Shown here: in pieces, positions 6,886 through 36,919 of the stretch
How positions within the stretch are numbered: the stretch's first letter is position 1
Layout of the letters: the number at the start of each line of letters is the position of its first letter
Source: Hyphomicrobiales bacterium
GTDB taxonomy: Bacteria; Pseudomonadota; Alphaproteobacteria; Rhizobiales; Xanthobacteraceae
Direction of reading: 5' to 3'
DNA length: 39,043 nucleotides
Assembly (NCBI GenBank): GCA_003140315.1
Contig: PLJS01000032.1
Location: 36,481-75,523, forward strand
Translations under genes and position numbers: made by a program
The notes under the pieces: generated by a model
Seen by the model: the letters and a program-made list of their open reading frames with translations, nothing else
What the model was told of the DNA's origin: nothing
The model's database searches: none

Positions 6886-8361
6886 CTAACCCGTGGCGAT
6901 GGCTCGCCGCGGCTCCGACGCCATCGTGGCGGCGAACAGGTCGGCGACGCTGCGCTGCTCCAGATGCATCGCGACGTCGAACAGCGCCGCCTCTCCGGCC
7001 TCGCCGAGACATGGGCTCACGAGCGACGCAAACTTGCCGCGCACCTCTTCGGCCGTCACGAAGTTCTCCGGATCGCCTTTCGGCACGCGCTGGAAGCTCT
7101 CATGCACCGTTCCGTCGCGCATCACGATCTTGAGCGAGCCTGACAGCAGGTTCGGGTAGTTGGCTTCGACGCGCGGGTCCTCGAACGCGGTCACGCGCCG
7201 CGTCAGCGCTAGCGTGCGCTGGTCGGCGAGCTGCCTGTTGTAGTCGTCCCATTCGAGCTTTCCCTGCCGCAGCATCACGGCGGCCGTGAAGTGCGTGGAG
7301 AACTGGCCGTCGACGACGCTCTTGGGCTCGCGCTTCTGTTCTTGCGGTGCCCCGGTCAGCACCATCCCGGTATTGCTCAGCCCGACGGCGATCTCGGCGA
7401 TGTCGTCGCTGCGATCTCCATGCTCGGTGTAAAACCCCGCCGCGAGGTCGGCGGGTGCGTGCGACAGGCGGCACGCCGGATAGGGCTTGATGCCCGTGGT
7501 CGCGACTTCCCAGATTTCGCGCAGTCCGGCGACGGCAAATTCCGGCTTCGCGTCCGGCACGTACGCGTGGAACAGCCCGAACCGGCCTTCCAGCGGATCC
7601 ACCGCGCCGGTGAAGCCGTGTTTCGCGAACGTCGCGGCGACGAGGCCGTTGCGGCCCGCGTTGCCGGCCTGGAAGCGCTTGGTCCACGCGCCGTTGCGCA
7701 AGTACTGCATCGAGCCTGCCGCCTCCGACAGCGCGATCCCGAACGCGTGCATCATCTGCTCGACCGAAAGTCCGAGCACGCGCCCCGCTGCGGCCGTGGC
7801 GCCGAAACAGCCCGCGACCGCGGTCGGATGGAAGCCGCGCTCGTACATGGCGGCCGGACCGAGCGCCTGGCTGATCTTGCAGGTCACGTCGTAGCCCGCG
7901 ACGATCGCGGTCAGGACGTCGCGTCCGCTCGCGCCGCACATTTCCGCGGCGGCGAAAGCCGCCGGCATGGTGGACGGGCTCGGCGCGAGCGATGCCGGCG
8001 TGTTCATCGGGTCGAAGTCCATCGAGTGTCCGATGGCGCCGTTGACCAGCGCGGCGACCGGCGGGGCGAAACGGCCGCGCGTGGAGAAGATCGTCGCGCC
8101 CGCGCCGTCCTTCCCGGCGCCGCCGAGCGCTTCGGCCGCGGCGATCATCGGCGGCGTCGACGCGGCGTCATAGGCCGCGCGCACCGCGATGCCGACGAAG
8201 TCGGCGACGAACAGCTTGGCCCGTTCGATGACGGACGGCGGTATGTCCTCGTAGCGCAGCGTCGCGACGTGCTCCGCCAGACGCCGCGTGATGTTCTCGC
8301 CGATATTCTCGCTCATCGCCGTCTCCGTTTTGGTTCTTTCACGGGTGTTTTCGTCATTCAT
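6886..8361 (-). CDS. MmgE/PrpD family protein (copy 1)
   Basis: NITRRLAEHVATLRYEDIPPSVIERAKLFVADFVGIAV..., NGAIGHSMDFDPMNTPASLAPSPSTMPAAFAAAEMCGASGRDVLTAIVAGYDV, YPACRLSHA; typical family layout. Likely start at the internal MSENIG (8316). Confidence 0.9.
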   Translation of the reverse strand: MNDENTRERTKTETAMSENIGENITRRLAEHVATLRYEDIPPSVIERAKLFVADFVGIAVRAAYDAASTPPMIAAAEALGGAGKDGAGATIFSTRGRFAPPVAALVNGAIGHSMDFDPMNTPASLAPSPSTMPAAFAAAEMCGASGRDVLTAIVAGYDVTCKISQALGPAAMYERGFHPTAVAGCFGATAAAGRVLGLSVEQMMHAFGIALSEAAGSMQYLRNGAWTKRFQAGNAGRNGLVAATFAKHGFTGAVDPLEGRFGLFHAYVPDAKPEFAVAGLREIWEVATTGIKPYPACRLSHAPADLAAGFYTEHGDRSDDIAEIAVGLSNTGMVLTGAPQEQKREPKSVVDGQFSTHFTAAVMLRQGKLEWDDYNRQLADQRTLALTRRVTAFEDPRVEANYPNLLSGSLKIVMRDGTVHESFQRVPKGDPENFVTAEEVRGKFASLVSPCLGEAGEAALFDVAMHLEQRSVADLFAATMASEPRRAIATG

Positions 8362-13706: not shown

Positions 13707-14750
13707 TTATTGGCGATAGCCGTAGGCCTTGTTCCAGTCGTCGGTCCAGGACTTGATTATCTTTTCGACCTCGTCGTCGGGGTACCAGGTCTTGATCGTC
13801 GCGGCGTCGACGCCCGGTGGCATCGGGGCCTGGGCCATGCTGGAGAACGACCCGAGCTCGACCATCAGCGCCTGACCCTCGCGCGACAGCGACCAGTCGA
13901 GAAACAGCCGCGCGGCATTGGGATGCGCGGCGCCCTTCGCCATCCCGGCGCAGAACACCGTGACCGGAACGCCCTCCGGCGCAAAGAACCACTTCAGCGG
14001 CGCGCCCTGAGCGGTCAGCGGAATGGCGAGCACGGTGACCAACGGCGCAATGCCGATCTCGCCGCGGATCATGGCATCGACCATTGGGGCCTGGCTCGGA
14101 AACAGCGCCGGCTTGAGCGCGGCCTGCTTCACCCAGTAGTCCTCGCCCAGCACCTTGCGTTCGAACATGGCCCGGGCGAAGGGACCTCCACCGGCCGCGA
14201 CCACGGTCTGCCCCAGATGCATCTTGCCGAATTCCGGCTTCGCCAGATCGGCCCAGGACTTCGGCGGGTCCTTCACAAGCTCGGAGTTGTACGTGATCGT
14301 CCAGGCGTTGCCGGATCGTGGCCACAACCGGTCGGTCGTGCGGGCGATATCGGGATAGTCGGCGGCATTCGGCGGCGCATAAGGCGCGAACAGCTCGACC
14401 ATCGCCCGCGCCTGTGGACGGTCGGTAAAATCAATGACGTCGGCGATCATCCGGTTGGCAGCCGCCTCGGTCTGGATGCGTGTGACCAATGAGCCGGTCG
14501 GCGCTCGCAAGATCTCGATCTGTATGCCGGGGAAGCGCTCGGAAAAGCGCTTTGAGACGGCCTGCTCAGTGTCGAGGAAGTTGGCAGTGTAGAGGACGAT
14601 CTTGCCCTCCATCCTGGCGGCGGCGAGCAACTCCGCCGAGGGCACGAACTGCGGCTCGGCCGCATGAGCGGTGCACGCAAGCGTCCATGCAAAGAAGACG
14701 ACCGCAAACGTCGCAGCGCGAGCGCGCCGACGCGGCGTGCAATCGTCCAT
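13707..14750 (-). CDS. Extracellular solute-binding protein (AfuA-like, ABC type)
   Basis: Signal peptide MDDCTPRRRARAATFAVVFFAWTLACTAHAAEPQ; ARMEGKIVLYTANFLDTEQAVSKRFSERFPGIQIEILRAPTGSL; HPNAARLFLDWSLSREGQ. Confidence 0.88.
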   Translation of the reverse strand: MDDCTPRRRARAATFAVVFFAWTLACTAHAAEPQFVPSAELLAAARMEGKIVLYTANFLDTEQAVSKRFSERFPGIQIEILRAPTGSLVTRIQTEAAANRMIADVIDFTDRPQARAMVELFAPYAPPNAADYPDIARTTDRLWPRSGNAWTITYNSELVKDPPKSWADLAKPEFGKMHLGQTVVAAGGGPFARAMFERKVLGEDYWVKQAALKPALFPSQAPMVDAMIRGEIGIAPLVTVLAIPLTAQGAPLKWFFAPEGVPVTVFCAGMAKGAAHPNAARLFLDWSLSREGQALMVELGSFSSMAQAPMPPGVDAATIKTWYPDDEVEKIIKSWTDDWNKAYGYRQ

Positions 14751-14875
14751 GAGCACGGTTCTCCCTGACCCTTCCGGTTTGGTGGCAGCATAAGCCGCTT
14801 TCGACAGGGATTGAAACGCGCTGCGCGGCGCGCGACCATCGTCCGAACACGTCAGATTATCGCGGGAGAGAAGCA

Positions 14876-16339
14876 ATGGGACGGACCGATCGCCTGTCGC
14901 GCCGCAAGCTGCTCGGCGGCGCCGCCGGCCTGCTCGCCTGCGCATCGATTCCCGCCACACGCGCTCTCGCTGAAAGCGCGCCGACCGAGGCGCAACGGCT
15001 CGCGCGGTTCGCCGCCGACATCGCATTCGACAAGCTGCCGGCGAGCACCATCACGGCGGTGAAGCGGCTCGTGCTTGATACGCTTGGCCGCGCGCTCGGT
15101 GCGATCGACAGCGAGCCGGTGCGCATCGCCGAGGCGATCACGCCCTCGGTCGCCGCGACCGAGCGCGGCGCAACGATCATCGGGAGCGGCCGCCACACTA
15201 CGGCGTCCGGCGCCGCCTTCGTCAACGGCACACAGATCCGCTTTCTCGACTTTCTCGATGTGTATTTCACCAAGGACGTTTGCCATCCAAGCGAAAACAT
15301 CGCGCCGGCGATGGCCTGCGTCGAGGAGGCGGGCGGCTCCGGTCGCGACCTGATCGAGGCGATCGTTGTCGGCTATGAGGCGGAGGCGCGGCTGTGCGAC
15401 GTCCTCGCGTTCCCGTCGATCAAACTGCATCCTGCAAGCGCCGCCGGCTTCGTCGTGCCGCTCGTCGCCGGAAAGGCGTGGCGCCAAAGCGCCGAGGTGA
15501 TGGCGCATGGCTGCGTGCTTGGCGGTGCCCGGCATCTCACCTTGAACTCGCTTCTGGCCGGCGACCTCAGCATGGCGAAGGCGCTCGCCTACTCGCTCAG
15601 CGGAGCCGAGGCGATCACGGCGGCGCGGCTTGCGGGACAAGGCTTCACCGGACCGCTCGCCTCGCTCGAATGGCTGTTCGACAAGGTGGCGCAGGCAAAA
15701 CCCGGATCGATCTCGCTCGCCCTGGAACTTTCCGACTGGCGCTGTGAGCGCGCGAGCCTCAAGCGCTATCCGGTGCAGTATGCGCTGCAGGCCCCGGTCG
15801 AGGCGGCCGTTGAGCTGCATGCGAAACTGAAGGGAAGATTGGATCAAGTCACCGGAATCGTCGCGACCATGAGACCGGCGCAGCTTGCAAACATCGCCGA
15901 TCCGTCGAAATTCCGGCCGGCCAATCGCGAGACCGCCGATCATAGTCTCCCGGCCTGCGTCGCGATGGCGCTCCTGGACGGAAAGCTGACGGATCAGCAG
16001 TTTGCGCGCGAGCGCTTTCGTGACGCCGACATTGTCGCGATTCTCGGCAAGACAAAGGCCGTCGGCAGCGAGGATCTGAACCAGCGTTTCCCGCGCGGCC
16101 GGCCGGCTCTGATCGAGATCGAGCTAGCCGACGGTACGCATCATCGCGCCGAAATCGAGGTGCCGCTCGGCGATGCCGCGCGGCCCTTCGACGAGAAGAC
16201 CGTGACGGCAAAATTCCGCGAGCAGGCCGAGCCTGCAATCGGAGTGGCCGGTGTGCAAACTGCGATCGAAGTCATCGACCGGCTCGATACGCTCGCAACG
16301 ATCGAGCCTCTGATTAAAGTGCTCCGTCGATCGAGCTAG
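14876..16339 (+). CDS. MmgE/PrpD family protein with an N-terminal twin-arginine signal (copy 2)
   Basis: N-terminus MGRTDRLSRRKLLGGAAGLLACASIPATRALAES (SRRKLL, hydrophobic stretch, AxA-like site), then MmgE/PrpD body (ITAVKRLVLDTLGRALG..., NRETADHSLPACVAMALLDGKLTDQQF). RBS-like GGGAGAGA upstream of ATG. Confidence 0.88.
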   Translation: MGRTDRLSRRKLLGGAAGLLACASIPATRALAESAPTEAQRLARFAADIAFDKLPASTITAVKRLVLDTLGRALGAIDSEPVRIAEAITPSVAATERGATIIGSGRHTTASGAAFVNGTQIRFLDFLDVYFTKDVCHPSENIAPAMACVEEAGGSGRDLIEAIVVGYEAEARLCDVLAFPSIKLHPASAAGFVVPLVAGKAWRQSAEVMAHGCVLGGARHLTLNSLLAGDLSMAKALAYSLSGAEAITAARLAGQGFTGPLASLEWLFDKVAQAKPGSISLALELSDWRCERASLKRYPVQYALQAPVEAAVELHAKLKGRLDQVTGIVATMRPAQLANIADPSKFRPANRETADHSLPACVAMALLDGKLTDQQFARERFRDADIVAILGKTKAVGSEDLNQRFPRGRPALIEIELADGTHHRAEIEVPLGDAARPFDEKTVTAKFREQAEPAIGVAGVQTAIEVIDRLDTLATIEPLIKVLRRSS

Positions 16340-16400: not shown

Positions 16401-19118
16401 TCATTCGAGCTTATGCGGCGGTGCGGGCGCGTCCTTGGTCAGCTCGTTGAGCACATAGGGCATGATGCCGCCTTGGCGGACGTAGTCGAGCTCCATCGCG
16501 GTATCCAGCCGGAGCGTGAGGGGAATGTTTTCAACCGCTCCGCCGGCGCGTCGAATAACCAGCGTCAAAATCTGGCCGGTCGTCACATGATCGTCCAACC
16601 CGACGACATCGAATGTTTCCGTTCCGTCCAGCCTCAAGCTTGCGGCGTTCATCCCCGCTCCAAACTGGCACGGCAGCACGCCCATGCCGACGAGGTTGCT
16701 GCGATGGATCCGCTCGAAGCTGCTCGCAATCACGGCGCGGACGCCGAGAAGGCATGACGCCTTGGCGGCCCAATCCCGCGCGCTGCCGGTGCCGTATTCC
16801 TCGCCGGCGATGATGACCAAGGGCACTTGTTCGGCTTTGTAGCGCATGGCGGCATCATAGATGCTGGTGCGCTCTCCATCGGGTTGATGCACCGTGACGC
16901 CGCCCTCGACGCCCGGCACCATGAAATTCTTCAGTTGCTGGTTCGAAAATGCGCCGCGGATCATGACGTCGTGATTCATGCGGCGCGCGCCGTAATTGTT
17001 GAAGTCGATCGGGGCCACACCGAGGCCGCGTAGATAGATGCCGGCCGGGGACGTCCCTTTAATGCTCCCGATCGGGCTGATGTGATCGGTCGTCACGGAA
17101 TTTCCCAGGATCGCGAGCGCCCGCGCGCCGAGAATATTCCGCAACACGATCCGTCCCATCTCCGGACCGAGAAACGGCGGCTCCTTGATGTAGTTGGAGC
17201 GATCGTCCCAGGGATAGATTTCCCCGGATGCCTGCGGGACCGCCGACCATAGCGGATTTCGCGCCGCGATATCGGCGCCGTAGGCCTCGCGATAAAATTC
17301 CGGCCTCGACGCGATCGCCAAAGCCGCATCGACCTCGTTCTGGGCGGGCCATAGATCGCGCAGAAAGACCGGGCTGCCGTCGCTTCCGATGCCGATCGGT
17401 TCGAGCTGCATGTCGATGTTGACGGTGCCGGTCAGCGCGAACGCAACGACCAGCGGCGGACTTGCCAGAAATGCCGCTCGTACGGCGGGATGAATGCGCG
17501 ATTCGAAGTTGCGATTTCCCGACAGCACGGCGCAGGCGACGACGTCATCGTCGAGTATCGCTTTCTCGAGTGTCGCGTCGATCGGCCCGGAGGCCCCGAC
17601 GCACGTCCCGCAGCTATAGCCCGCGACGACGAAGCCGAGTTCGTCGAGATAGCGCTGCAGGCCGGCTTCTTCCAGATACTTGCTGACCACCGTCGATCCG
17701 GGCGTGAGCGAGGTCTTCACCCACGATTTGGCCGCGAGACCGCGCTCGACGGCCTTCTTGGCCACCAGACCGGCCATCACCATCACGCCCGGATTGGACG
17801 TGTTGGTGCACGACGTGATGGCGGCGATCACCACGTCCCCGTGTTCGGGCCGGCTTGCGCCTGCGACACGGGGAGCGGACGATTTCGCCCCCGCCGCCAC
17901 CGCATAGCCGCCCGCGCTCACCGGCCGCTTCAGCGTATCGTCGAATCTCGCCCGCAATTCGAAAAGCGGCACGCGGTCCTGCGGCCGTTTGGGCCCGGCA
18001 AGGCAGGGCTCGACCGCGCCGAGATCGAGATCGATGACGGCCGTGTAATCCACCTCTCCGGGCATCGGCGCGCCGAAGCAATTCTGCGCGCGGAAATAGG
18101 CCTCCACGGCCTTGACTTGCTGTTCGGACCGCGCGGTCTGCCGCAGATAGCGGCAGGTCTGCTCGTCGACCGGGAAAAACCCGATCGTCGCTCCGTATTC
18201 GGGTGACATGTTGGAAATCGTCGCGCGATCCGGCAGCGTCAGATTGCGAACGCCGGCGCCGAAGAACTCCACGAACTTGCCGACGACTTTGGAACGGCGA
18301 AGTAATTCAGTCACGTGCAGCACCAGATCGGTCGCGGTGACGCCGGCTTTCAGCGCTCCGGTCACATTCACGCCGACGACGTCGGGGGTGAGGAAATACA
18401 CCGGCTGTCCGAGCATCGCGGCTTCCGCCTCGATGCCGCCGACGCCCCATCCCACCACGCCGAGGCCGGCGATCATGCCGGTGTGCGAATCCGTGCCGAC
18501 CAGCGTGTCGGGAAAGCACACGCCGTCCTTGAACAGGATGCCGGTGGCCAGAAATTCGAGATTGACCTGATGCAGGATTCCGGCGCCGGGCGGAAAAAGC
18601 CGGATGCCCCGATAGGCCTGCATCGCCCATTTGACGAAGCTGAATCGCTCGGAATTGCGGCTGATTTCGAGTTCCATGTTGCGCGCGAGCGCATCACGCG
18701 TCCCGTGGAAGTCGACAGTCAGGGTATGGTCGAGCAACATGTCGACGGGGACCTTCGGCTCCACGCGGCTCGCCGGGTAGCCAAGACGCTTCATCGCGCC
18801 GCGGATCGCCGTGAGATCGCCGAGCAACGGGATGCCGGCGGCGCAATTGAGAACGATGCGGCCGACCGTGAACGGAATTTCGCCTTCGCGCGGCGCGCGC
18901 GCCTGCCAGCCCGCAAGAGCGCGAACCTGACTCTCCGACACGCGCCGCCCGTCGCAATGCCTGACAAGCGACTCCAGGACGATGCGCAGCGAAACCGGCA
19001 GCCTGGAGATCTTGCCGAAGCCGCTCTCTTCGAGCGCGGCAAGCGAAAAGAAGCGGCTCTTGCCTCCAAGCCCGAGATCGATCTCGCGTTCGCACGCGTC
19101 TTTGAGAAGAGATGTCAT
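16401..19118 (-). CDS. acnA: Aconitate hydratase, AcnA type
   Basis: ~905 aa; LVGTDSHTGMIAGLGVVGWGVGGIEAEAAMLGQP, ITSCTNTSNPGVMVMAGLVAKKAV, YSCGTCVGASGPI, SGNRNFESRIHP, AGEEYGTGSARDWAAK. Start MTSLLKDACEREI at 19118. Confidence 0.93.
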   Translation of the reverse strand: MTSLLKDACEREIDLGLGGKSRFFSLAALEESGFGKISRLPVSLRIVLESLVRHCDGRRVSESQVRALAGWQARAPREGEIPFTVGRIVLNCAAGIPLLGDLTAIRGAMKRLGYPASRVEPKVPVDMLLDHTLTVDFHGTRDALARNMELEISRNSERFSFVKWAMQAYRGIRLFPPGAGILHQVNLEFLATGILFKDGVCFPDTLVGTDSHTGMIAGLGVVGWGVGGIEAEAAMLGQPVYFLTPDVVGVNVTGALKAGVTATDLVLHVTELLRRSKVVGKFVEFFGAGVRNLTLPDRATISNMSPEYGATIGFFPVDEQTCRYLRQTARSEQQVKAVEAYFRAQNCFGAPMPGEVDYTAVIDLDLGAVEPCLAGPKRPQDRVPLFELRARFDDTLKRPVSAGGYAVAAGAKSSAPRVAGASRPEHGDVVIAAITSCTNTSNPGVMVMAGLVAKKAVERGLAAKSWVKTSLTPGSTVVSKYLEEAGLQRYLDELGFVVAGYSCGTCVGASGPIDATLEKAILDDDVVACAVLSGNRNFESRIHPAVRAAFLASPPLVVAFALTGTVNIDMQLEPIGIGSDGSPVFLRDLWPAQNEVDAALAIASRPEFYREAYGADIAARNPLWSAVPQASGEIYPWDDRSNYIKEPPFLGPEMGRIVLRNILGARALAILGNSVTTDHISPIGSIKGTSPAGIYLRGLGVAPIDFNNYGARRMNHDVMIRGAFSNQQLKNFMVPGVEGGVTVHQPDGERTSIYDAAMRYKAEQVPLVIIAGEEYGTGSARDWAAKASCLLGVRAVIASSFERIHRSNLVGMGVLPCQFGAGMNAASLRLDGTETFDVVGLDDHVTTGQILTLVIRRAGGAVENIPLTLRLDTAMELDYVRQGGIMPYVLNELTKDAPAPPHKLE

Positions 19119-19148
19119 TGAATGGCGCCTTCCGGGCATGCCGTCTCG

Positions 19149-20138
19149 CTATTCGACGTGGATTTCATTGGTCTTGATGACGGACAGCCATCGTTCGAAA
19201 TCGATCTTCAGGATTTCGGCGAACTGCTCGGGGGTGGATGTCGAAACCGCGCCGGCCTGGTCGAGCATCCGCGCCGTCATCGTCGGCGTGTTCATGATCT
19301 TCACGATCTCATCGTGCAGCTTTTGGACGATGTCGCGCGGCGTTCCGGCGGGCGCGAGCACGCCGTTGAAGCTGATCACTTGAACTTCGGGAAGGCCGGC
19401 CTCCGGCGCGCTCGGAACGTCCGGTATCGCGGCCCAGCGCTTCGTATCCGTCACCATGAGGGCACGGATCGCGCCGCCATTGATGAGGCCGGTCGAGGAC
19501 GGCATCGTGGCGAACATGGCCTGGATCTGCCCGCCGAGCAGATCCGCCATGGCGGGCGCGCCGCCGCGGTACGGGACGTAGTTGAGCTCGACCTTGGTCG
19601 CGAAGCGATACAGCTCGGTCGTGAGATGATTTGTGCTGCCGGTCCCGCTTGTGCCGTAACTGATCTTTCCGGGCCGCGCGCGGGTCAATGCGACAAGCTC
19701 CGAGGCCGAGTGCACCGGCAAGTCCTTGTTCACGACCAGCACGTTCGGAAACAGGACGAGGGTGGTGATCGGCTCGAAATCGCGGACCGGGTCGTAGGGC
19801 AACTTCGCGTAAAGCCCCGGGCTCATCGTCAATTCGTTGCTGGTTCCGAGCAGCAGCGTGTATCCGTCCGGAGCTGACTTTGCGACGAACGCCGCGCCGA
19901 TCGTTCCGCTTGCGCCGGGCTTGTTGAGGATCACGACCGGCTGTCCCAGCGCTGCCATCAGCCGCTCTGCCAGCGGCCGCGCGACGATGTCCGCCGGCCC
20001 GCCAGGCGGAAATGGCACGACGAGATGGATGGGCCGGTCGGGATAGGTCTCCGCTCGCGCCGGCGTCGCGCCCACCGCGGCCGCGCCAAGCGCCGTGGCA
20101 AGCAAGACGGCATGCACCATGCGACGGACCGGCGTCAT
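19149..20138 (-). CDS. Tripartite tricarboxylate transporter substrate-binding protein (Bug/TctC family)
   Basis: Signal peptide, YPDRPIHLVVPFPPGGPADIVARPLAERLMAALGQPVVILNKPGASGTIGAAFVAKSAPDGYTLLLGTSNELTMSP; canonical Bug protein. Confidence 0.95.
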   Translation of the reverse strand: MTPVRRMVHAVLLATALGAAAVGATPARAETYPDRPIHLVVPFPPGGPADIVARPLAERLMAALGQPVVILNKPGASGTIGAAFVAKSAPDGYTLLLGTSNELTMSPGLYAKLPYDPVRDFEPITTLVLFPNVLVVNKDLPVHSASELVALTRARPGKISYGTSGTGSTNHLTTELYRFATKVELNYVPYRGGAPAMADLLGGQIQAMFATMPSSTGLINGGAIRALMVTDTKRWAAIPDVPSAPEAGLPEVQVISFNGVLAPAGTPRDIVQKLHDEIVKIMNTPTMTARMLDQAGAVSTSTPEQFAEILKIDFERWLSVIKTNEIHVE

Positions 20139-21550
20139 GCCGTCTTCCGTTTATTGGGCGCGGTGACGCCGACGGCGCGCAACGGACCGGTCAGATCGCG
20201 CAGCGAGGGCAGAGCGGCGGTCATGTCGACCAAACGCGCGAGATCGGACACCGCATCGGCCGGCAGGCGGGAGGCCGCGAGCAGGCGAAACTTGTCTGCC
20301 AGTTCTTGATGGCTGCACGGATCGGCCGGCGTTCCGTGACAGTCGAGCACCATGCGTTGCGACACCGATCCGTCCGCGCGCGTCAGCGCCACGCTGGCGC
20401 CGAACTGTGCCGGATAGACGGCTTCGACGGCCGGATCGACGACGATCTCCACCTTGGCGGCGAGCGCGCGCGTCCTCGGATCGTTCACGGCGTCCGGGCT
20501 GAAGCCGGCGGGGTCGCGCGGATCGCCGGTCAAGGCGACGGCCGCGCAATAGGGAATGCTGTATTGCGCGCCCATCGTATCGATCGGCGCGGGCTCGCCA
20601 TTGTTCTGCGCCGCATAGCGGCTGACGCCGACCCGAATGCTTTTCACGTCGTCTGATGTCAGCGGCCGCGGCCCGCGAAGCTCGACGACGAGCTGCACGA
20701 CCGGCTGGATCCATCCGCAGATCGGATAGACCTTGAACCAGACGTCGCGCACGACCCAGGTTTGCCCGAGATCGCGGCTCATCTTCTCAGGACTCGCCCC
20801 AGTGCCGCCGAACACGTCCAAGAGGCCGAAGCGGCTATCGAGCGCCGACGGAGGACCGAGGAAGCCGCGACTCGCGAGCTGCGCCATGCGTACGCCGGCT
20901 TCCGCCGAGCGTCCGAGATGCAGGCGCTTGACCATTCCTCCGCCGTGGCCGGCGGCGAAGCTCTTGATCCCCGAAGAGGCCGAACAGGCAAGACCGACGG
21001 CCGAAAGAAGCTGATCGAGCGACAGGTCCAGGATCTTGCCGGCCGCGACCGCGCAGGCGATCGGCGCGACCAGGCTGGTGGTGTGAAATCCGCGCTTCGC
21101 CGGCTCGACGCCGAGGGCGGCCCCGACCCGGTGCATCACCTCGTAGCCGGCAATGATCGCCTCGATCAGCCGCGCGCCCGAAGCACCCACGGATTCGCCC
21201 GCCGCAATGGCGGCCGGGATGACGCAGCCCGCCGGATGCGTGATCGACTCGGCAATCAGATCGTCGAGCTCGAATCCGTGGATCGCGGTGCCATTGCAGA
21301 GCGCGGCGGCCGGTGCGGAAAGGAGCTCCGGCCTACCGATCACCGTGCTCCGACCGGCGGACGCTTCCGCCACCATCTCGTCGGCGAGAATCTGCGACCA
21401 AGCCTGGCCGGAGCCGAAAATCCCGCAGCCCAGCGCATCCATGAGACAGGTCTTGGCGCGCTCGACCATATCGGCGGGCACGTCGCCGAGGCGCAGGCCG
21501 TGGGCAAACGCGACCAATTCCCGCCCGTGACTCTTTTCTGGCGCGTTCAT
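20135..21550 (-). CDS. MmgE/PrpD family protein (copy 3)
   Basis: MNAPEKSHGRELVAFAHGLRLGDVPADMVERAKTCLMDALGCGIFGS..., NGTAIHGFELDDLIAESITHPAGCVIPAAIAAGESVGASGARLIEAIIAGYEVMHRVG. Stop overlaps the start of the Bug gene by 4 nt. Confidence 0.93.
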   Translation of the reverse strand: MNAPEKSHGRELVAFAHGLRLGDVPADMVERAKTCLMDALGCGIFGSGQAWSQILADEMVAEASAGRSTVIGRPELLSAPAAALCNGTAIHGFELDDLIAESITHPAGCVIPAAIAAGESVGASGARLIEAIIAGYEVMHRVGAALGVEPAKRGFHTTSLVAPIACAVAAGKILDLSLDQLLSAVGLACSASSGIKSFAAGHGGGMVKRLHLGRSAEAGVRMAQLASRGFLGPPSALDSRFGLLDVFGGTGASPEKMSRDLGQTWVVRDVWFKVYPICGWIQPVVQLVVELRGPRPLTSDDVKSIRVGVSRYAAQNNGEPAPIDTMGAQYSIPYCAAVALTGDPRDPAGFSPDAVNDPRTRALAAKVEIVVDPAVEAVYPAQFGASVALTRADGSVSQRMVLDCHGTPADPCSHQELADKFRLLAASRLPADAVSDLARLVDMTAALPSLRDLTGPLRAVGVTAPNKRKTA

Positions 21551-21561
21551 CGGCCGGCCTT

Positions 21562-22158
21562 CTAGTCGAACGCCTTTTGGCCCAGGAGATTTTCGCGGAA
21601 TCGATTCTTGATGTGCGCGCCGTCGCGCATCCGGATCGACATCGGATAGCGCTTCATGTCCACCTTGACGTCGCGGAACATGAGCGCCGAGCCGCCGAAC
21701 AGGTCCGGAATCGTTGCAGCAAGCTCCTGCTCGGTGTAGATCGTCTCGGCGCTGGGAAAGCTGCAGGCCGTGGCGATGCCGGCGAGGCTGACGCCGCGAT
21801 GCGTGTGTGTCGGCTGCATGCCGGTCTCGCTGTAGTGCTCGTTGTCGATGACGATAAGCGCGAGATTGCGCGGCGACTTGGCGCCGATGGTGGCGAAGGC
21901 GCCGAGACCCATCAGCATCTCGCCGTCGCCGGTAATGACGACGACCCGGCGGCTGGGCTGCGCCAGCGCGAGGCCGAGCCCGACCATCGCGGCGGAACCC
22001 ATTCCGCCCCACAGATAGAATGTGTTCGGATGGTCGGCGGTGCCGGCGTCGTAACAGGTCGATCCGAGGCCCGCGACGATCAGCGCGTCCTTGCGGCCCG
22101 CGAGCATCGCGGCAATCACGGCGCGCCGGTCCATCGTTGCTTGATTGCGACTCGGCAT
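21562..22158 (-). CDS. Thiamine pyrophosphate-dependent decarboxylase, TPP-binding (beta-like) subunit, sulfopyruvate/phosphonopyruvate decarboxylase-like
   Basis: MPSRNQATMDRRAVIAAMLAGRKDALIVAGLGSTCYDAGTADHPNTFYLWGGMGSAAMVGLGLALAQPSRRVVVITGDGEMLMGLGAFATIGAKSPRNLALIVIDNEHYSETG: GDGE...(N) TPP motif. Confidence 0.88.
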   Translation of the reverse strand: MPSRNQATMDRRAVIAAMLAGRKDALIVAGLGSTCYDAGTADHPNTFYLWGGMGSAAMVGLGLALAQPSRRVVVITGDGEMLMGLGAFATIGAKSPRNLALIVIDNEHYSETGMQPTHTHRGVSLAGIATACSFPSAETIYTEQELAATIPDLFGGSALMFRDVKVDMKRYPMSIRMRDGAHIKNRFRENLLGQKAFD

Positions 22159-22160
22159 GC

Positions 22161-22691
22161 CTATTTGCTCCAGTCCTTGAACCCGATCAGACGCTGGCCA
22201 AGCAGCACCGCGATCGGCCGGTTTGAGCTGAATGTCATGACGGCCGCCGCATGCACCACGTCGCGGACGTCCTCCTTGTGATCCACGCGCTGCACGATGA
22301 CGCCCGCGTGCTCGAGCGTCTGCGGCGTCGCCTGCCCCATCGGGAGTTGCCACGGATTGAACTCGCCCCACTCGCCGCGCATCGTGACGATCATCAGCAG
22401 CGGAAAGCGGCATTCCTGAATGATGCTGAGCGTGTTGATGCAGTTGCCGACGCCGGAGGATTGCATCAGCAGCGCGCCGCGCTTGCCGCCGAGCCAGGTG
22501 CCCGCCAGCATGGCGACGCCTTCTTCCTCCGACGTCAGCGACACCGTGGAGATCGCATCGTCGGCCTCGCAATCCTTGATCAGCTGCGTGTGCCCGGCAT
22601 CGGGCACGTAGGAGATCTGCTCGATCGCGACCTGCTTGAAGACGTCATAGATGTCGCGTGGCCAATCCCGCGCTAGCGCTTCTGGTTTCAC
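22161..22691 (-). CDS. Thiamine pyrophosphate-binding protein, alpha-like (PYR) subunit, sulfopyruvate decarboxylase-like
   Basis: EQISYVPDAGHTQLIKDCEADDAISTVSLTSEEEGVAMLAGTWLGGKRGALLMQSSGVGNCINTLSIIQECRFPLLMIVTMRGEWGEFNPWQ; PYR-domain-like with a conserved Glu. Ends 2 nt before the beta-subunit start. Confidence 0.87.
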   Translation of the reverse strand: MKPEALARDWPRDIYDVFKQVAIEQISYVPDAGHTQLIKDCEADDAISTVSLTSEEEGVAMLAGTWLGGKRGALLMQSSGVGNCINTLSIIQECRFPLLMIVTMRGEWGEFNPWQLPMGQATPQTLEHAGVIVQRVDHKEDVRDVVHAAAVMTFSSNRPIAVLLGQRLIGFKDWSK

Positions 22692-22734: not shown

Positions 22735-23724
22735 TCAGTTCTGAGTCATGCCGGCGGATTTGAAGACCGCCGCCCACTTCTCCAAGTCTTCCTTGATGAC
22801 CTTCGCGAATTCGTCGGGTGCGCTTCCGACCAAGATCGTCCCGGACGACTCAAAGCGTGCCCTGATGGCCGGATCCGCAAAGGCGTGAACCGCAGATTGG
22901 TGGAGCTTCTGCACGATGGCGGGGTCGGTTCCTGCCGGCGCCAGGAGACCGTACCAGAGATCGGCCTCGAATTTCTCCAGCCCTGGATACTCGGCCACGG
23001 CCGGAACATCAGGCATCGATGGATTGCGGGTCTTGCTCGTGACGGCGAGCACGCGCAACCGCCCGTCGTCGACAAAGGGCTTGGCGGTCAAGATCGCGGC
23101 GAACATGAAGTCGAGATGACCCGCGACCACGTCCTGCAATGCGGGCGCCACGCCTTTGTAGGGCACATGCGTCATCTTCAGATTGAGGAACGTCTTGAGC
23201 ATTTCGCCCGACAGATGCGCGCCGCCGCCAGCGCCCGAGGAGCCGAAGTTGAGCTTATCGGGATGCGCGCGCGCGTAGTCGATCAGCTCGCCGAGCGTCT
23301 TCACCGGAAGGCTCGGATTGACGACGAGCAGGAACGGCTGCCGCGCGAGCAGGCTGACCGCCGCGAAGTCCTTCACGGGATCGAAGTTGATGGCGCTCTT
23401 GAAAAGCTGCGGATTGATGACGATCGTCGCGTTGGTCGTCACCAGCAGCGTGTGTCCATCCGGGGCCGCATGCGCAACATAGTTGGTGGCGATGTCGCCG
23501 TTGCCGCCGGTCTTGTCTTCGACGATGACGGTCTTGTTCCATTCTTCGCCGAATTTGTGCGCGAGCTCGCGCGCCATGAAGTCGTTGCCGCCGCCGGCCG
23601 CAAACGCCGAAATCAACCGTACCGTTTGGGTCGGATAGGCGGCATCTTGCGCGCGACACGGATAGGCGCACTGCAAGAGCGCGAAGATGGCCAGTACGGT
23701 GCAGGGCAACGGCGACTTCGGCAC
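22735..23724 (-). CDS. Tripartite tricarboxylate transporter substrate-binding protein (Bug/TctC family)
   Basis: YPTQTVRLISAFAAGGGNDFMARELAHKFGEEWNKTVIVEDKTGGNGDIATNYVAHAAPDGHTLLVTTNATIVINPQLF. Likely GTG start at 23724 (VPKSPLPCTVLAIFALLQCAYPCRAQDA); in-frame extension to 23817. Confidence 0.92.
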   Translation of the reverse strand: MPKSPLPCTVLAIFALLQCAYPCRAQDAAYPTQTVRLISAFAAGGGNDFMARELAHKFGEEWNKTVIVEDKTGGNGDIATNYVAHAAPDGHTLLVTTNATIVINPQLFKSAINFDPVKDFAAVSLLARQPFLLVVNPSLPVKTLGELIDYARAHPDKLNFGSSGAGGGAHLSGEMLKTFLNLKMTHVPYKGVAPALQDVVAGHLDFMFAAILTAKPFVDDGRLRVLAVTSKTRNPSMPDVPAVAEYPGLEKFEADLWYGLLAPAGTDPAIVQKLHQSAVHAFADPAIRARFESSGTILVGSAPDEFAKVIKEDLEKWAAVFKSAGMTQN

Positions 23725-23772
23725 GAGATCCTCCACATCCGTCTTCTTGATCGAGAGACGTTCTAACGGTCT

Positions 23773-23825
23773 CCAGTATGCAGATAAAAGCCGAAGATAA
23801 GATACTGGCATGCGCATGCCAGCAT
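23773..23825. promoter_or_regulatory. Inverted-repeat array with an 18-bp perfect palindrome (CTGGCATGCGCATGCCAG, 23805-23822)
   Basis: CCAGTAT at 23773-23779, ATACTGG at 23802-23808, CCAGCAT at 23819-23825; the last two are half-sites of the palindrome. Lies between the tcuA-like stop and the Bug gene. Confidence 0.55.
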
Positions 23826-23847: not shown

Positions 23848-25356
23848 TCAGGCGACGTTCGCCGCGCGGTTGGCGGCGAGCGCGGATTGAGCAGCGTTGC
23901 GTCCGGCGATCCGCCCGAACACCGCACCGCTGGTCAGGCCGGTCGCGCCCGGGTAGTTGAAATAGAACAACCCACCCAGCATTTCGCCTGCCGTGTACAA
24001 CCCGGAGATCGGCTGATGGCCGGTGTCGAGCACCTGGGCGTTCGTCGTCACCTTGAGGCCGCCGAACGTGAACGTGATGCCGCACGTGATCGCGTAGGCT
24101 TCGAACGGCGGGTTCTCCAGTGCGATCGCCCAGTTCGACTTTGGAATGGCGAGCCCTTGCGTGCGGCGTCCGTCCTTGACGTTCGCGCTGAACAGCACCT
24201 CCCGCGTGATCGAGGCATTGAACGCCTTGATCGTCTCGATCAGCGCATCGCGATTGACGTCGCCGAGCTTGTCGGCGAGCTCCTCGATCGTGTTCGCCGT
24301 CACCTTCGTCACGCGCCTGGCGCGATATTCCGGACGGAGCAGGTGTGTGACCGATGAGTCGAAAATCTGCCAGGCAAACTGATCGGGCTGCTGCAGGATG
24401 ATGCGCCCGTATTTCGCATAAGTGTAATTTCGGATGTCGGCGCCCTCGTCGAGAAAGCGCTTGCCCTCCGCGTTGACCATGATCGAGAACGGATAGTTGT
24501 CGCGCTCGTAGTCATCCATGGTTTCGAAGCTGCCGAAGTCGTCGGCATAGCGTTCCCAGCCGACCGCGTGGCATCCAGACCAATGGCCGGCGGGCTGCGC
24601 GCCGATGCGCAAGGCCATCTCGAGCCCATCGCCGCAATTGTATTTGCTGCCGCGCACCTTTGCGAGATCCCAGCCCGGACCGAGGTGGCGCGCGCGCCAG
24701 GCCGCATTCGCCTCGAACCCGCCGCAGGCCAGGATGACGCTCCTGGCGGAGAACTCCCGCGTCACGTCGTCGAGCTTAACCACGATGCCGGTCACGCCGT
24801 CATCGCAGTGAATGAGATCCCTCGCCCACGCATTGTAGCGGATGTCGACGCCGGCTCTTTCGGCCGCGCGATAGAGTTGATCGACCAGGCCCCGCCCTCC
24901 GCCGACGGCCGCCAATGTGGCGCCGCCCCAGAACGTGAACTTTCCGTCGACCTTGAAAGCTTGACGTCCGAATTGGGGAAGGAAGCGCACGCCCTGGCGA
25001 GCCAGCCAGTGCATGGTGGCGTTGCTTTGCCTGACGAGGATCTCGCACAGATCCGGATCGGTCCGGTTCTGCGTGACCCGCGCCATGTCGTCGAAGAACT
25101 TGTCTTCCGTATAGCGGCCGAAATCGCTTGCAAGCTCGTCCGGCGTCAGGTCCGGCGAGAGCGCGCGGATGTCTTCCGTGCCGCCATAGGCGAACCGCAT
25201 CAGGCCTTCGGTGAAGGAACTGTTGCCGCCGCGTTCCTCCTGCGGGGCGCGCTCGAGGAGCAGGACCTTCGCGCCTTCTTCGCGCGCGGTGAGGGCCGCG
25301 CAAAGCGCCGCGTTTCCGCCGCCAACGACGATCACGTCGTAACCGCTGGTGTTCAT
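23848..25356 (-). CDS. FAD-dependent tricarballylate dehydrogenase (TcuA-like) / fumarate reductase-type flavoprotein
   Basis: MNTSGYDVIVVGGGNAALCAALTAREEGAKVLLLERAPQEERGGNSSFTEG...; C-terminal TFGGLKVTTNAQVLDTGHQPISGLYTAGEMLGGLFYFNYPGATGLTSGAVFGRIAG. In-frame ORF extends to 25455. Confidence 0.88.
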   Translation of the reverse strand: MNTSGYDVIVVGGGNAALCAALTAREEGAKVLLLERAPQEERGGNSSFTEGLMRFAYGGTEDIRALSPDLTPDELASDFGRYTEDKFFDDMARVTQNRTDPDLCEILVRQSNATMHWLARQGVRFLPQFGRQAFKVDGKFTFWGGATLAAVGGGRGLVDQLYRAAERAGVDIRYNAWARDLIHCDDGVTGIVVKLDDVTREFSARSVILACGGFEANAAWRARHLGPGWDLAKVRGSKYNCGDGLEMALRIGAQPAGHWSGCHAVGWERYADDFGSFETMDDYERDNYPFSIMVNAEGKRFLDEGADIRNYTYAKYGRIILQQPDQFAWQIFDSSVTHLLRPEYRARRVTKVTANTIEELADKLGDVNRDALIETIKAFNASITREVLFSANVKDGRRTQGLAIPKSNWAIALENPPFEAYAITCGITFTFGGLKVTTNAQVLDTGHQPISGLYTAGEMLGGLFYFNYPGATGLTSGAVFGRIAGRNAAQSALAANRAANVA

Positions 25357-25481
25357 GATCGGGCCGTTCCTAATACCAGCATGACCTACCATGGCCGGAC
25401 CATCGTAGTAAGGTGACCGGATGCGGCGGCGCTGATGAGAATTGACTGAGCACAAACAAACGCCAGGGACGGAGGAAGACC

Positions 25482-26522: not shown

Positions 26523-28450
26523 ATGTCCGAAGTCAAGTCCATCGCGCTTACGGGTTCCTCGCCGGCGCGGTTGCCGGAAGCGAGCGCGGGTGAGGACGTC
26601 TGGCTGTCCGATGGATCGGACGGTGAGCGCGCGCCGCGCTGGCTGCGGCACATCGATGCCGCAACGATTACCCTGATCAATCTGTCGCTGGTTGCGGAGG
26701 TGATGATCGTTTTCCTGAATACCGTACTCAGGAACACGCTCAACGCGACACTGATGCCGGGTGTGGAGGAGACGTCGCGACTGTTCCTGGTGATGATGGC
26801 CTTCTTGGGTGGCGCCGTGGCTTACGGCCGCGGCCGCTTCATGGCCATCAACTACGTCACCGACAGGCTCGATCCGGCGTGGCGCGATTTTTTCGCCGCC
26901 ATGGTCGCCTGGATGGTCATCCTCATCACGGGCGTGATCGGAGGATTCGCGATACCGCTGCAGCTCGCCAATGCGGGCGAACGCACGACCATGCTCGGCA
27001 TCGCCTACATCTGGATGACGCTGCCGGTGATCCTGGGCTGCGCGCTGTTCATCGCGCACGCGGGCGTGGTGCTCTCGCGCAAGCCGGTGCGGGCGATCGG
27101 CCTCTCAGGCGTAGCGATTGCGGCGATCGCATGCGCTTTCATCGCGTCGCGGAACGGGACCTGGGTCGACACCTCGTGGCTCTACGCGATCCTCGCCGGC
27201 GTTTTCATCCTGCAGATCGCGGTCGGCTTGCCGGTCGGCTTCGTGCTCGCGACCGTCGGACTTGTCTACGTCTACGTCACCGCCACGGCACCGCTTATCG
27301 CGGTGCCGATGAATGCCCAGCGCGGCGTCGGCGGCTTCATCTTCCTCGCCTTGCCGTTCTTCATCCTGGCCGGCTTCATTATGGATCGCGGCGGCATCGG
27401 CTCACGCATCGTCGATTTCCTGTCGACCTTGATCGGCCATTTCCGCGGCGGGCTGATGCAGGTGCTGATCGTCGGCATGTATATCGCGTCGGGCATATCC
27501 GGTTCGAAGGCCGCTGACATGGCGGCGATCGGCATACCGATGAACCGGACGCTGCGCCGCGCCGGCTACGATCCGCATGAGGCGGCGGCCGTGCTCGCAT
27601 CCTCGGCGGCGATGGGGGAGAGCATCCCGCCGAGCATCGCCATCCTGGTGCTCGGCTCGGCGACGTCGGTCTCGACCGGAGCGTTGTTCCTCGCCGGTCT
27701 CCTGCCGGCCGCGACGATCGCGGCCTGCCTCATGATCGTGGTCTATGTTCGCGCGCTGATGTCGGGAATGCCGAGGGTGCCTCGCGCGCGAGCCGTCTCG
27801 GCGCGGCCGCGCAGGCCGTCATCCCGCTGTTGATGCCGATCCTCTTGATCGGCGGGATCCTCGCCGGCATCGGAACGCCGACCGAGATCTCGTCATTTGC
27901 GGTCGTCTACGGGCTCCTGCTCGGCGTCGGGCTCTACCGTCAGATCGGTCTCGGCGACCTCTGGCGGGTCTTGACCGAAGCGAGCCTGATGAGCGGGATG
28001 ATCTTCTTCACCTTCAGTGGTGCGACTGTCTTTTCCTGGGCGCTGTCCCTGGAGGGCGTTCCGGATCTCGTCGCCTCGGCGTTGCGCGGGCTCGGGCCCA
28101 CCGCGTTCTTGCCAGCCGTCATCCTCATCACGATCGTGATGGGTGCCGTGCTGGAGAGCATCGTCACGATCATCATCCTCGGCCCGCTCCTGCTGCCGGT
28201 CGCGGTCCAGCTCGGGATCGATCCTCGGCAATATGGCATCGTGCTGATAGAAGCGTTTGGGATCGGGTCGATCGTGCCGCCGGTGGGGCTCGCGGTCTAC
28301 ATCGCCTGTTCCATCTGCCAGACGGACGTGGATCGCACCACACGACCACTCCTGTTGTATCTTGTCGTATTGTGCCTTGGACTGCTGCTGGTCGCTTTCG
28401 TGCCGTGGATCACGCTGGTGCTGCCCGACCGCTTTCACTTTAATGGCTGA
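26523..28450 (+). pseudogene. TRAP transporter fused permease (DctQ-DctM), interrupted by an apparent 1-nt deletion
   Basis: ORF 26523..27833 carries DctQ plus the first half of DctM (GISGSKAADMAAIGIPMNRTLRRAGYDPHEAAAVLASSAAMGESIPPSIAILVLGSATSVSTGALFLAGLLPAA); the rest (AVIPLLMPILLIGGILAGIGTPTEISSFAVVYGLLLG...) continues in another frame (ORF 27830..28450). Frame switch near GGG at 27764-27766; total length 1928 = 3n-1. Confidence 0.85.
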
Positions 28451-28480
28451 TCAAAGCCACGAACAAAACGGGAGGACGAC

Positions 28481-29506
28481 ATGCAAATCGGAGGTGGCGA
28501 CAAGACGCGATGCGCCGTAACGCGCAGGACGCTGCTGCGGGGAGCCGCAGCGGCCGTTCCGGGACTTCTTCTGAGCCGACCGGCGTTATCCCAAGGCCGT
28601 GCCAAGCGCATCCGCTATGCGCATTCGACGCCGACCACGCATGGCTGGCATCTCTGGGGCGAGCGCTTCAAGAGCGCGGTCGAGGAGAAGACGGCCGGCA
28701 AGATCCAGGTGACGATCTTCCCCAACGCGCAGATGGGCAACGAGCAGGACATCGCCAAGGCGGTGCGGCTCGGCTCGATCGAGATGGCGTCCGTCGGCGT
28801 CGCACTGATGAACTGGGTGCCGTCGATCTCGGTGACGGATGCGCCGTTTCTGTTCCGCTCGCGCAAGCAGGCCTATGCGGCGATCGACGGAGCGCTCGGC
28901 GACGAGTTGAAGACACGGGCGCTGGCGCAAGGCTTCCGCATCGTGGGTTGGAACGATCTCGGCTCGCGCTCGATGACCAACAACAAGCACCCGATCAATT
29001 CGGTCAAGGACATGCGCGACCTGAAGATGCGGGTCCCGGATTCGCGGTCCTACAACGCCATGATGGCGGCGACCGGAGCGGCCGTGGTCGCGATCGATCT
29101 CAGCGAGCTCTATCTTGCGCTCAGCCAGGGCGTGGCGGACGGGCAGGACACGCCGCCGTCGGTGGTCAAATCCAACAAGTTCTACGAAGTGCAGAAATTC
29201 ATTTCCAAGACCGACCACGTGCTGACGAACGCCTACTCGATCATCAATGCCTCGACGTTCGACGGCCTCACGAAAGACGAGCAGGATGCGGTGCTCGCCG
29301 CGGGGACGGACGCCACCAAATGGCTGCGCCAATACACCTAGAAGGACGAGGCCGAGGCCTACACTTTCCTCAAGGGCAAGGGGATGCAGGTCAATCTCGA
29401 CGTGGATGTCGCGTCGTTCCGCGAGGCTTGCAGCGGCGTCATCACGAAGTTTCCCGATCTCTTCCCGCCCGACCTCGTGAAGCTCGCGCAGTCGGCGGAA
29501 GGCTAG
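28481..29506 (+). pseudogene. TRAP transporter DctP substrate-binding protein, interrupted by in-frame TAG (29339-29341)
   Basis: Tat-like signal RRTLLRGAAAAVPGLLLSRPALSQ, RIRYAHSTPTTHGWHLWGERFKSAVEEKTAGKIQVTIFPNAQMGNEQDIAKAVRLGS. After TAG the same frame continues as KDEAEAYTFLKGKGMQVNLDVDVASFREACSGVITKFPDLFPPDLVKLAQSAEG then TAG. Confidence 0.85.
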
Positions 29507-34130: not shown

Positions 34131-35168
34131 ATGAACGGCAAGCATCGAGACGTTCGACCCGGACTAGCAAGGCGAGAGTTCCTGGCGCTGTCCGCCGGGG
34201 CCGCGGGCGCGTCGTCGTTGGGGATCGCATCGCCGGCGATCGCCCAGCGTGCGCGCGTGCTGCGTTTCGGCAGCATGATGCCCGCGGACTCCATCTATCA
34301 CAGGGCCTGCGTGATGTTCGGCGATGAGCTTGCCAAACTCTCCTCGCAGAAGATCAAGATCGAGGTCTACCCCAATTCGCAATTAGGCAGCATCGCCGAA
34401 ATGCTGTCGGCCGTGCAGGTGGGTTCGCTGCCGATCACACTCGCGGTGCCCGCCTGGTATTCGAAATTCATGAAGCCGATCGACGCCTTCACGCTGCCCT
34501 ACATCGTCAGCTCGGTGGATCGCCTGCGGCCCGCCATCGACGGCGTGCTGGGCAAGGAGATCGCCAAGCTCGGTGAGGCGGCGGGCTTCGAGATCATCGG
34601 CTATTGGCTGGTCGGCGGACGCCACATCGTCAACCGCGTGCGCCCCATTAATACGCCGTCCGACTGCGCCGGACTGAAGCTGCGCGTCATCAACAGCCAA
34701 GTCTACATCCAGTCCTTCCGCGCGCTCGGCGCCAACACGGTCGCGATGGACCCTTCGGAACTCTACCTCGCCCTGCAGCAGGGCGTGGTCGACGGATTCG
34801 AATATCCGCTCCCCGATCTCGTCTCCTATAAGCTTTACGAGGTCTCGAAGTATCTCTCGCTCGACAATCATACCACCGACATCTTCATCATCTCGATCAA
34901 CAAGGGACTGTGGGACGAGATGGCCGCCGAAGAGCGGGGCATGGTCAGCCAGGCGATGCGCACCGCGATGGACTGGCAATGGAAGACGCAGCCGGATGAA
35001 ATTGCGACAGCGCTCGGGAAGCTCAGGACCTTGATGCAGGTCAACGACATCACGCCGGAGAACAGGGAGCTGTTCATCAAGGCGACGCGGCCGGTCTATC
35101 AGCAGTTCCAGGGCTCGATCGGGAAGGACTTCCTCGATCTTGCGATGCGGGAACTGGGGCCAGCGTGA
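34131..35168 (+). CDS. TRAP transporter DctP substrate-binding protein with Tat-like signal
   Basis: LARREFLALSAGAAGASSLGIASPAIAQ; SQKIKIEVYPNSQLGSIAEMLSAVQVGSL; SELYLALQQGVVDGFEYPLPDLVSYKLYEVSKYLSLDNH. Confidence 0.94.
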   Translation: MNGKHRDVRPGLARREFLALSAGAAGASSLGIASPAIAQRARVLRFGSMMPADSIYHRACVMFGDELAKLSSQKIKIEVYPNSQLGSIAEMLSAVQVGSLPITLAVPAWYSKFMKPIDAFTLPYIVSSVDRLRPAIDGVLGKEIAKLGEAAGFEIIGYWLVGGRHIVNRVRPINTPSDCAGLKLRVINSQVYIQSFRALGANTVAMDPSELYLALQQGVVDGFEYPLPDLVSYKLYEVSKYLSLDNHTTDIFIISINKGLWDEMAAEERGMVSQAMRTAMDWQWKTQPDEIATALGKLRTLMQVNDITPENRELFIKATRPVYQQFQGSIGKDFLDLAMRELGPA

Positions 35169-35569: not shown

Positions 35570-36919
35570 ATGCCGTCGACCGTTCTCGACAGTGACATCT
35601 TCAAGGACATGTTCGGCACCGCCGAGATGCGCGTGGTGTTCTCCGACGACAATCTACTCGGCCGTTATGTCGAGGCCGAGGTCGCGCTCGCGGTAGCGCA
35701 AGGCCGCGTCGGCGTCGTCCCGCGCGAGGCCGCCGACGCGATCGCTACGCTCGCGCCTTCGGTCGTGCTCGACCGCGCCGCGCTCAAGCAGGAGACGGAG
35801 AATGTCGGCTATCCGATCCTGGGTCTGGTACGGCAGCTTTCCGCCAGGGTCGGCGATGCCGGACGCTACGTGCACTGGGGCGCGACGACGCAGGACATCA
35901 TGGATACCGCGACCGTGCTGCAGGTGCGCGCGGCGCTCGCCATCATCGAGCGCGACGTCGCGGCGGTGTCGGCGGTGCTCATGCGGCTCGCGGAGAAGTA
36001 TCGCGATACGCCGATGGCCGGGCGCACCCATCTCCAGCAGGCGCTTCCGATCACGTTCGGCTACAAGTGCGCCGTGTGGCTCTCCGCCCTGGACCGCCAC
36101 GCCGAGCGCCTGCGCGAATTAAAGCCGCGCGTGCTCGTCGCCCAGCTCGGCGGGGCCGTCGGCACGCTCGCGTCGCTCGGCGACAAGGGCCTTGAGGTGC
36201 GGCGCGAATATGCGCGCGAACTTGGGCTCGCCGATCCACCAATCACCTGGCATGTGGCGCGCGATGCGCTGGTCGAGACCGTCAATCTTCTCGGGCTCAT
36301 CACCGGCTCGCTCGGCAAGATCGGCTTCGACGTGATGCTGATGATGGCGACCGAGATCGGCGAGGCGTTCGAGCCGTTCGCAAGCCATCGCGGCGCGTCG
36401 AGCACGATGCCGCAGAAGCGCAATCCGATTTCCTCGGAAATCCTGGTCGCCAACGCCAAGGCGGTGCGTCAGCACGCCGGCCTGATGCTCGACGCCGTGA
36501 TCCAGGATTTCGAACGCGCGACCGGCCCGTGGCACGTCGAATGGATCGCGCTGCCGGACAGTTTCATTCTGGCGGCGGGCTCGCTCGCCCAGGCAAAATT
36601 CATGCTCGAGGGTCTCGTGGTCGACGAAAGTCGTATGCGACGGAACCTCGATCTCACCCGGGGACTGATTGTCGCAGAGGCCGTCATGATGGGGCTCGCG
36701 CCGCATCTCGGACGGCAGCAGGCCCATGACGTGGTCTACGAGGCGTGCCGCGAAGCGCTGCAAGAAAGCCGCGCGCTGATTGATGTTTTGATGCTCAATC
36801 CCGCGATTGCGCAGGCGCTGCCGGCCGAGCGACTGCGCGCGTTATGCGACCCCGCCAACTACTTGGGCACCGCGTCCGCCATGGTGGACAACGTTGTGCG
36901 CAAGCGGCCCAACCCCTAG
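35570..36919 (+). CDS. Aspartase/fumarase superfamily lyase (PcaB / adenylosuccinate lyase-like)
   Basis: YVHWGATTQDIMDTA, MAGRTHLQQALPITFGYK, and signature ASSTMPQKRNPISSE. Confidence 0.92.
   Translation: MPSTVLDSDIFKDMFGTAEMRVVFSDDNLLGRYVEAEVALAVAQGRVGVVPREAADAIATLAPSVVLDRAALKQETENVGYPILGLVRQLSARVGDAGRYVHWGATTQDIMDTATVLQVRAALAIIERDVAAVSAVLMRLAEKYRDTPMAGRTHLQQALPITFGYKCAVWLSALDRHAERLRELKPRVLVAQLGGAVGTLASLGDKGLEVRREYARELGLADPPITWHVARDALVETVNLLGLITGSLGKIGFDVMLMMATEIGEAFEPFASHRGASSTMPQKRNPISSEILVANAKAVRQHAGLMLDAVIQDFERATGPWHVEWIALPDSFILAAGSLAQAKFMLEGLVVDESRMRRNLDLTRGLIVAEAVMMGLAPHLGRQQAHDVVYEACREALQESRALIDVLMLNPAIAQALPAERLRALCDPANYLGTASAMVDNVVRKRPNP

Follow-up and report, generated by a model that had tools for sequence, protein, structure and literature searches.

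The window, a 39,043-nucleotide stretch of a Hyphomicrobiales contig, carries on its plus strand a gene for a member of the MmgE/PrpD family with a twin-arginine (Tat) type signal at its N-terminus, which we call Tat-MmgE. The gene lies between a divergent solute-binding protein (SBP) gene and a convergent aconitase gene, and the features of this region are as follows.

13707..14750, minus strand: divergent periplasmic SBP, SBP_bac_1/PhnS-like, with a signal-like N-terminus of its own
14861..14875, plus strand: probable ribosome-binding site region, GGGAGAGAAGCA immediately 5' of the ATG (sequence reading)
14876..16339, plus strand: MmgE/PrpD family protein with Tat signal (Tat-MmgE), 487 amino acids (domains, alignment, fold)
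14876..14971, plus strand: Tat-type signal peptide, residues 1-32 (motif, single start, shuffles, pattern check, model)
14936..14941, plus strand: alternative lipoprotein-type (SPII) cleavage site in L-L-A-C, between Ala21 and Cys22 (PROSITE PS00013 match)
16401..19139, minus strand: aconitase AcnA, convergent with the Tat-MmgE gene
19149..20138, minus strand: TctC-type periplasmic receptor
20135..21571, minus strand: second MmgE/PrpD protein, without export signal
21562..22691, minus strand: two-subunit thiamine-diphosphate (TPP) decarboxylase, its alpha subunit sulfopyruvate-decarboxylase-like but below the curated cutoff
22735..23817, minus strand: second TctC-type periplasmic receptor
23848..25392, minus strand: TcuA-like FAD-dependent tricarballylate dehydrogenase (NCBIfam NF006130, 589 bits, cutoff 369)

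The N-terminal signal

The translated frame begins MGRTDRLSRRKLLGGAAGLLACASIPATRALAES, which divides into an n-region (MGRTDRLSRRK), an h-region (LLGGAAGLLACASIPA) and a c-region (TRALA, cleaved before E). The full signal, MGRTDRLSRRKLLGGAAGLLACASIPATRALA ahead of ES, contains SRRKLL, a hydrophobic stretch and an Arg before the A-L-A site. The N-terminal sequence is exactly that given in the sequence-only reading, whose account of the frame as an MmgE/PrpD enzyme with a twin-arginine signal is borne out by this complete anatomy and by both Pfam domains; the ribosome-binding site that it placed directly 5' of the start is likewise present. That reading had also raised a true start downstream of the RR motif, which is ruled out: apart from the ATG at 14876, no ATG, GTG or TTG lies in frame from the preceding stop codon to the domain. 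Third-position GC over codons 1-39 is 0.79, the same as in the domain, and the codon-position pattern is flat 5' of the ATG, suggesting that coding starts there.

When residues 2-60 were shuffled with composition preserved, 273 of 20,000 sequences (1.4%) passed our Tat rule; on this low rate and the clade-wide presence of the feature elsewhere, a chance motif was rejected. Generic TAT profile HMMs gave no significant match to Tat-MmgE, and the Tat call is based on the motif, the h-region, the c-region Arg, conservation in other clades and the structure model. The N-terminal segment, which lies outside the fold, has the features of a Tat substrate (RR motif, moderate h-region, AxA site), and TatC is encoded in the genome (226 bits). 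Export of Tat-MmgE is a prediction, one that the sequence supports well and that we consider probable. A signal borrowed from another gene of the same genome was rejected, as a DNA search gave just short scattered matches.

Family, fold and catalytic residues

Downstream of the signal, Pfam MmgE_PrpD_N matches from residue 40 with 161.9 bits (2e-47) and MmgE_PrpD_C with 126.2 bits (1.5e-36), against a cutoff of 32.1 for each. The AlphaFold model (mean pLDDT 91, pTM 0.90) leaves the first ~31-38 residues outside the fold, with residues 1-31 nearly all at pLDDT <50. All 23 PDB matches with E <= 0.001 are members of the MmgE/PrpD family, the best being human and mouse cis-aconitate decarboxylase, Bacillus subtilis MmgE, PrpD and iminodisuccinate epimerase, with a target-normalised TM of 0.74-0.87 for whole-chain matches. 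The catalytic-type residues of Tat-MmgE are D125, D128, H137, H185, K235 and K296; D128, H137, K235 and K296 do not vary across an alignment of 49 sequences and are kept in 24 of 24 Tat-bearing homologues. As judged from sequence, the Asp/His/Lys/Lys catalytic core is intact. By comparison, a paralogous MmgE/PrpD protein in the window (6886-8361, minus strand), which adjoins a PhnU2-like permease gene, has neither Asp nor His at the aligned catalytic positions (DFDPMNTPASLAPSPS) but keeps both Lys, and may be inactive or carry out other chemistry.

Among the characterised relatives, cis-aconitate decarboxylase/IRG1 (6r6u, 7br9, 6r6t) gives the best fold matches (TM 0.84-0.87). Equivalents of IRG1 D93, H103, H159, K207 and K272 are present in Tat-MmgE, but T97 is replaced by Val129 and H277 of hIRG1 by Gln301, and IRG1 has no bacterial Tat signal. 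B. subtilis MmgE (5mux) and PrpD (1szq, 6s62) have the fold, both domains, the catalytic core residues and the DH motif in common with Tat-MmgE, but show ~20% identity to it in structural alignment and are not known as exported, and Tat-MmgE scores far below the equivalog cutoffs. Iminodisuccinate epimerase (2hp0) and (S)/(R)-methylsuccinate isomerase (PMC12290011) have a common core with it, with C4 dicarboxylate binding and enolate stabilisation; neither is described as exported, and Pro180 of Tat-MmgE lies near their second base (Tyr145/Tyr148), in a gappy region aligned without reference sequences of these enzymes. Within the same genus there are the Tat-MmgE proteins of clade A (L021, L065 and L001, the last from the window's own genome), which likewise have a Tat signal, an intact core and the same family membership, yet are 35-36% identical to Tat-MmgE, form a separate Tat clade and are encoded ahead of a ModA-like SBP gene.

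Distribution of the signal among homologues

A Tat-type N-terminus was found in 24 of 115 homologues, a sample chosen by similarity to the window protein, so that these counts are not family-wide frequencies. Two proteins were assessed by eye: L157, which has RR with a slightly short uncharged run and is missed by the Tat rule, and L048, in which the rule flags an RR lying within the domain. On the tree, the Tat label changes 7 times, compared with 22.1 changes expected for shuffled labels, and at least five of the 7 are forced by well supported branches, giving at least five tree-separated Tat groups and ruling out a single Tat clade. Domain-defined clades of 10, 6 and 3 members are uniformly Tat, and the genome of the window itself encodes three Tat-type MmgE/PrpD paralogues: Tat-MmgE, L001 and L013.

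In a closer tree, Tat-MmgE falls in a clade of 14 (support 99/97), in which it alone bears a signal; since the other 13 members are without one, the basic role of the enzyme does not need export. The nearest orthologues, at 45-58% identity (Roseomonas, Pararoseomonas, Bordetella petrii and Burkholderiales), begin at the domain. In the sister clade, which was delimited from the domain alone and includes Bradyrhizobium and a Herminiimonas MAG among others, 14 of 14 members carry RR close to the N-terminus. By the Tat rule, no signal is seen in the outgroups, which come from Planctomycetota and Nitrospirota among others. Conservation of the ~33-residue extension, a question posed in the sequence-only reading, therefore has a divided answer: the sister clade and a number of further clades have it, but the nearest orthologues are without it. 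Being unique in its own clade, the signal of Tat-MmgE is probably a separate gain. Two gains are the simplest account, and one gain followed by several losses is possible. A search of plasmids found only relatives of ~27-34% identity; a profile search of the genome contigs gave no match with a single-protein query and succeeded with an alignment-based one.

That all close orthologues begin at the domain, and that the generic TAT models are silent, would fit an extension that resembles a signal but goes unused, the enzyme being cytosolic like those orthologues and its N-terminus a neutral or recently acquired tail. We regard this as unlikely given the complete signal anatomy with Arg before the A-L-A site, the lack of an alternative start codon, and a sister clade and other clades that uniformly carry Tat signals. 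A further possibility is Tat export as a lipoprotein cleaved before Cys22, which would make the enzyme membrane-anchored rather than soluble. L-L-A-C at residues 19-22 fits PS00013, but Leu at -2 is uncommon in lipoboxes, the A-L-A site follows Cys22, and none of 12 other Tat homologues checked fits the pattern, all having AxA sites; we hold this mode of anchoring to be quite improbable.

Gene neighbourhoods and proposed function

The ATG of Tat-MmgE lies 125 bp from the divergent SBP gene, as first described, provided that the SBP start at 14750 is right. On the other side, 61 bp separate it from the convergent AcnA gene; the genome has another AcnA-type gene at a different place, its coding sequence interrupted across several frames. 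From 25392 down to 16401 the minus strand carries a tight run encoding the TcuA-like enzyme, TctC, TPP decarboxylase alpha and beta subunits, MmgE, TctC and AcnA. This run looks, by its predicted gene content, like a tricarboxylate catabolism cluster. The TcuA-like protein scores 285 bits against TIGR02485, below its cutoff of 372. The Tat-MmgE gene is convergent with the run and lies outside it. Further along the plus strand, DctM is divided between two ORFs and the adjoining DctP looks truncated (26523-29341), probably through frameshifts or assembly errors, and a Lyase_1 protein of PcaB/adenylosuccinate-lyase type is encoded at 35570-36919. Two TRAP DctP binding proteins (28481-29341 and 34131-35168, plus strand) also begin with Tat-type sequences, which may mean that proteins handling organic acids are commonly exported through Tat in the lineage.

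The non-Tat orthologues adjoin PrpF, together with TctC or a PhnU2-type permease and ATPase, and also CoA-transferase III genes, while a relative, L020, adjoins genes for LeuC- and LeuB-type enzymes; these neighbours point to branched tri- or dicarboxylates rather than to one substrate. In two same-genus genomes, a ModA-like SBP gene (L131:10301-11056 and L130:11239-11994) lies 7-31 bp downstream of the gene for a clade-A Tat-MmgE, and its product has a Sec-type N-terminus. In the window's genome, orthologous pieces of this pair occupy two contig ends (the start of C308, the end of C317), as expected of an operon split by assembly. Beside L013, which belongs to another clade, is a ModA-like gene remnant (L140:13960-14241, minus strand). 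The aconitate isomerase of Pseudomonas sp. WU-0701 is reportedly a periplasmic ModA-type protein, and the ModA-like protein encoded beside the clade-A Tat-MmgE is possibly a periplasmic aconitate isomerase.

From the family, signal, core residues, TatC and neighbours, all read in the sequence, we infer export, a reaction, a substrate and an order of steps: Tat-MmgE would be a Tat-exported PrpD-like isomerase/dehydratase acting in the periplasm on a tri- or dicarboxylate before uptake (probability about 0.55). An intact core joined to a Tat signal is most simply read as a folded, exported enzyme that converts an acid before uptake. The cofactor-free enzyme would fold in the cytoplasm, be exported by the Tat system, lose its signal after A32 (or possibly be anchored as a lipoprotein at C22) and work in the periplasm. 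Family members are considered to form an enolate from acids that contain a C4 dicarboxylate core (PMC12290011; PMC7347537), and through such chemistry Tat-MmgE would most likely isomerise or (de)hydrate a tri- or substituted dicarboxylate. The product would then be imported through a binding-protein transporter encoded nearby, of the TctC type or that of the divergent ABC-type SBP, and fed to cytosolic aconitase. We lean towards this reaction class. Isomerisation before uptake had been suggested from the SBP gene; the divergent arrangement stands, but it is thin evidence by itself, and the convergent TcuA-like/TctC/aconitase run and the neighbours of orthologues are the stronger grounds.

The neighbourhood is also the basis on which a tricarboxylate, rather than a substituted succinate, is considered as substrate, though with a fairly low probability. 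An iminodisuccinate-like aminopolycarboxylate or methylsuccinate-like compound might instead be epimerised and passed to a lyase of the aspartase/fumarase superfamily or to a CoA transferase, the tricarboxylate neighbours being unrelated. A 64% homologue of the Lyase_1 protein is encoded 0.8 kb from the B. petrii orthologue, CoA-transferase III genes adjoin orthologues, and a characterised family member epimerises methylsuccinate (PMC12290011). However, Lyase_1 is 19 kb off in the window, with AcnA and the TcuA-like enzyme nearer, PrpF partners point to unsaturated carboxylates, and the epimerase Tyr base is not obvious at the aligned position; we find such a substrate rather unlikely. Weak matches to PrpD models and a TADHSLP motif resembling the PrpD/MmgE motif might suggest an ordinary 2-methylcitrate dehydratase of the propionate pathway. 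The NCBIfam PrpD equivalog scores (119.5 bits against a cutoff of 950, 82.8 against 575 and 66.6 against 458) exclude an ordinary PrpD, no PrpB or PrpC was found among the neighbours examined, and an export signal is present; this assignment is highly improbable.

In searches of open-licence full texts, no account of an MmgE/PrpD member that is exported came up, in agreement with the sequence-only reading that such enzymes are not known as exported; MmgE in one Tat paper (PMC10924467) is merely a neighbouring gene, which rules it out as such a report. We put forward, as a speculative proposal, that MmgE/PrpD enzymes moved to the periplasm several times independently, yielding periplasmic modules in which tri- or dicarboxylates are made ready for uptake; in one version the partner is a ModA-like periplasmic protein, possibly acting as an aconitate isomerase and not as a transport receptor. 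Some 19% of prokaryote species have MmgE/PrpD homologues, which are for the most part uncharacterised (PMC12290011). If a recurrent periplasmic branch is real, part of organic-acid metabolism (citrate, aconitate, tricarballylate and succinate derivatives) would precede uptake, compartment and neighbours would be available for guessing substrates, and assays of MmgE/PrpD proteins should cover extracellular acids.
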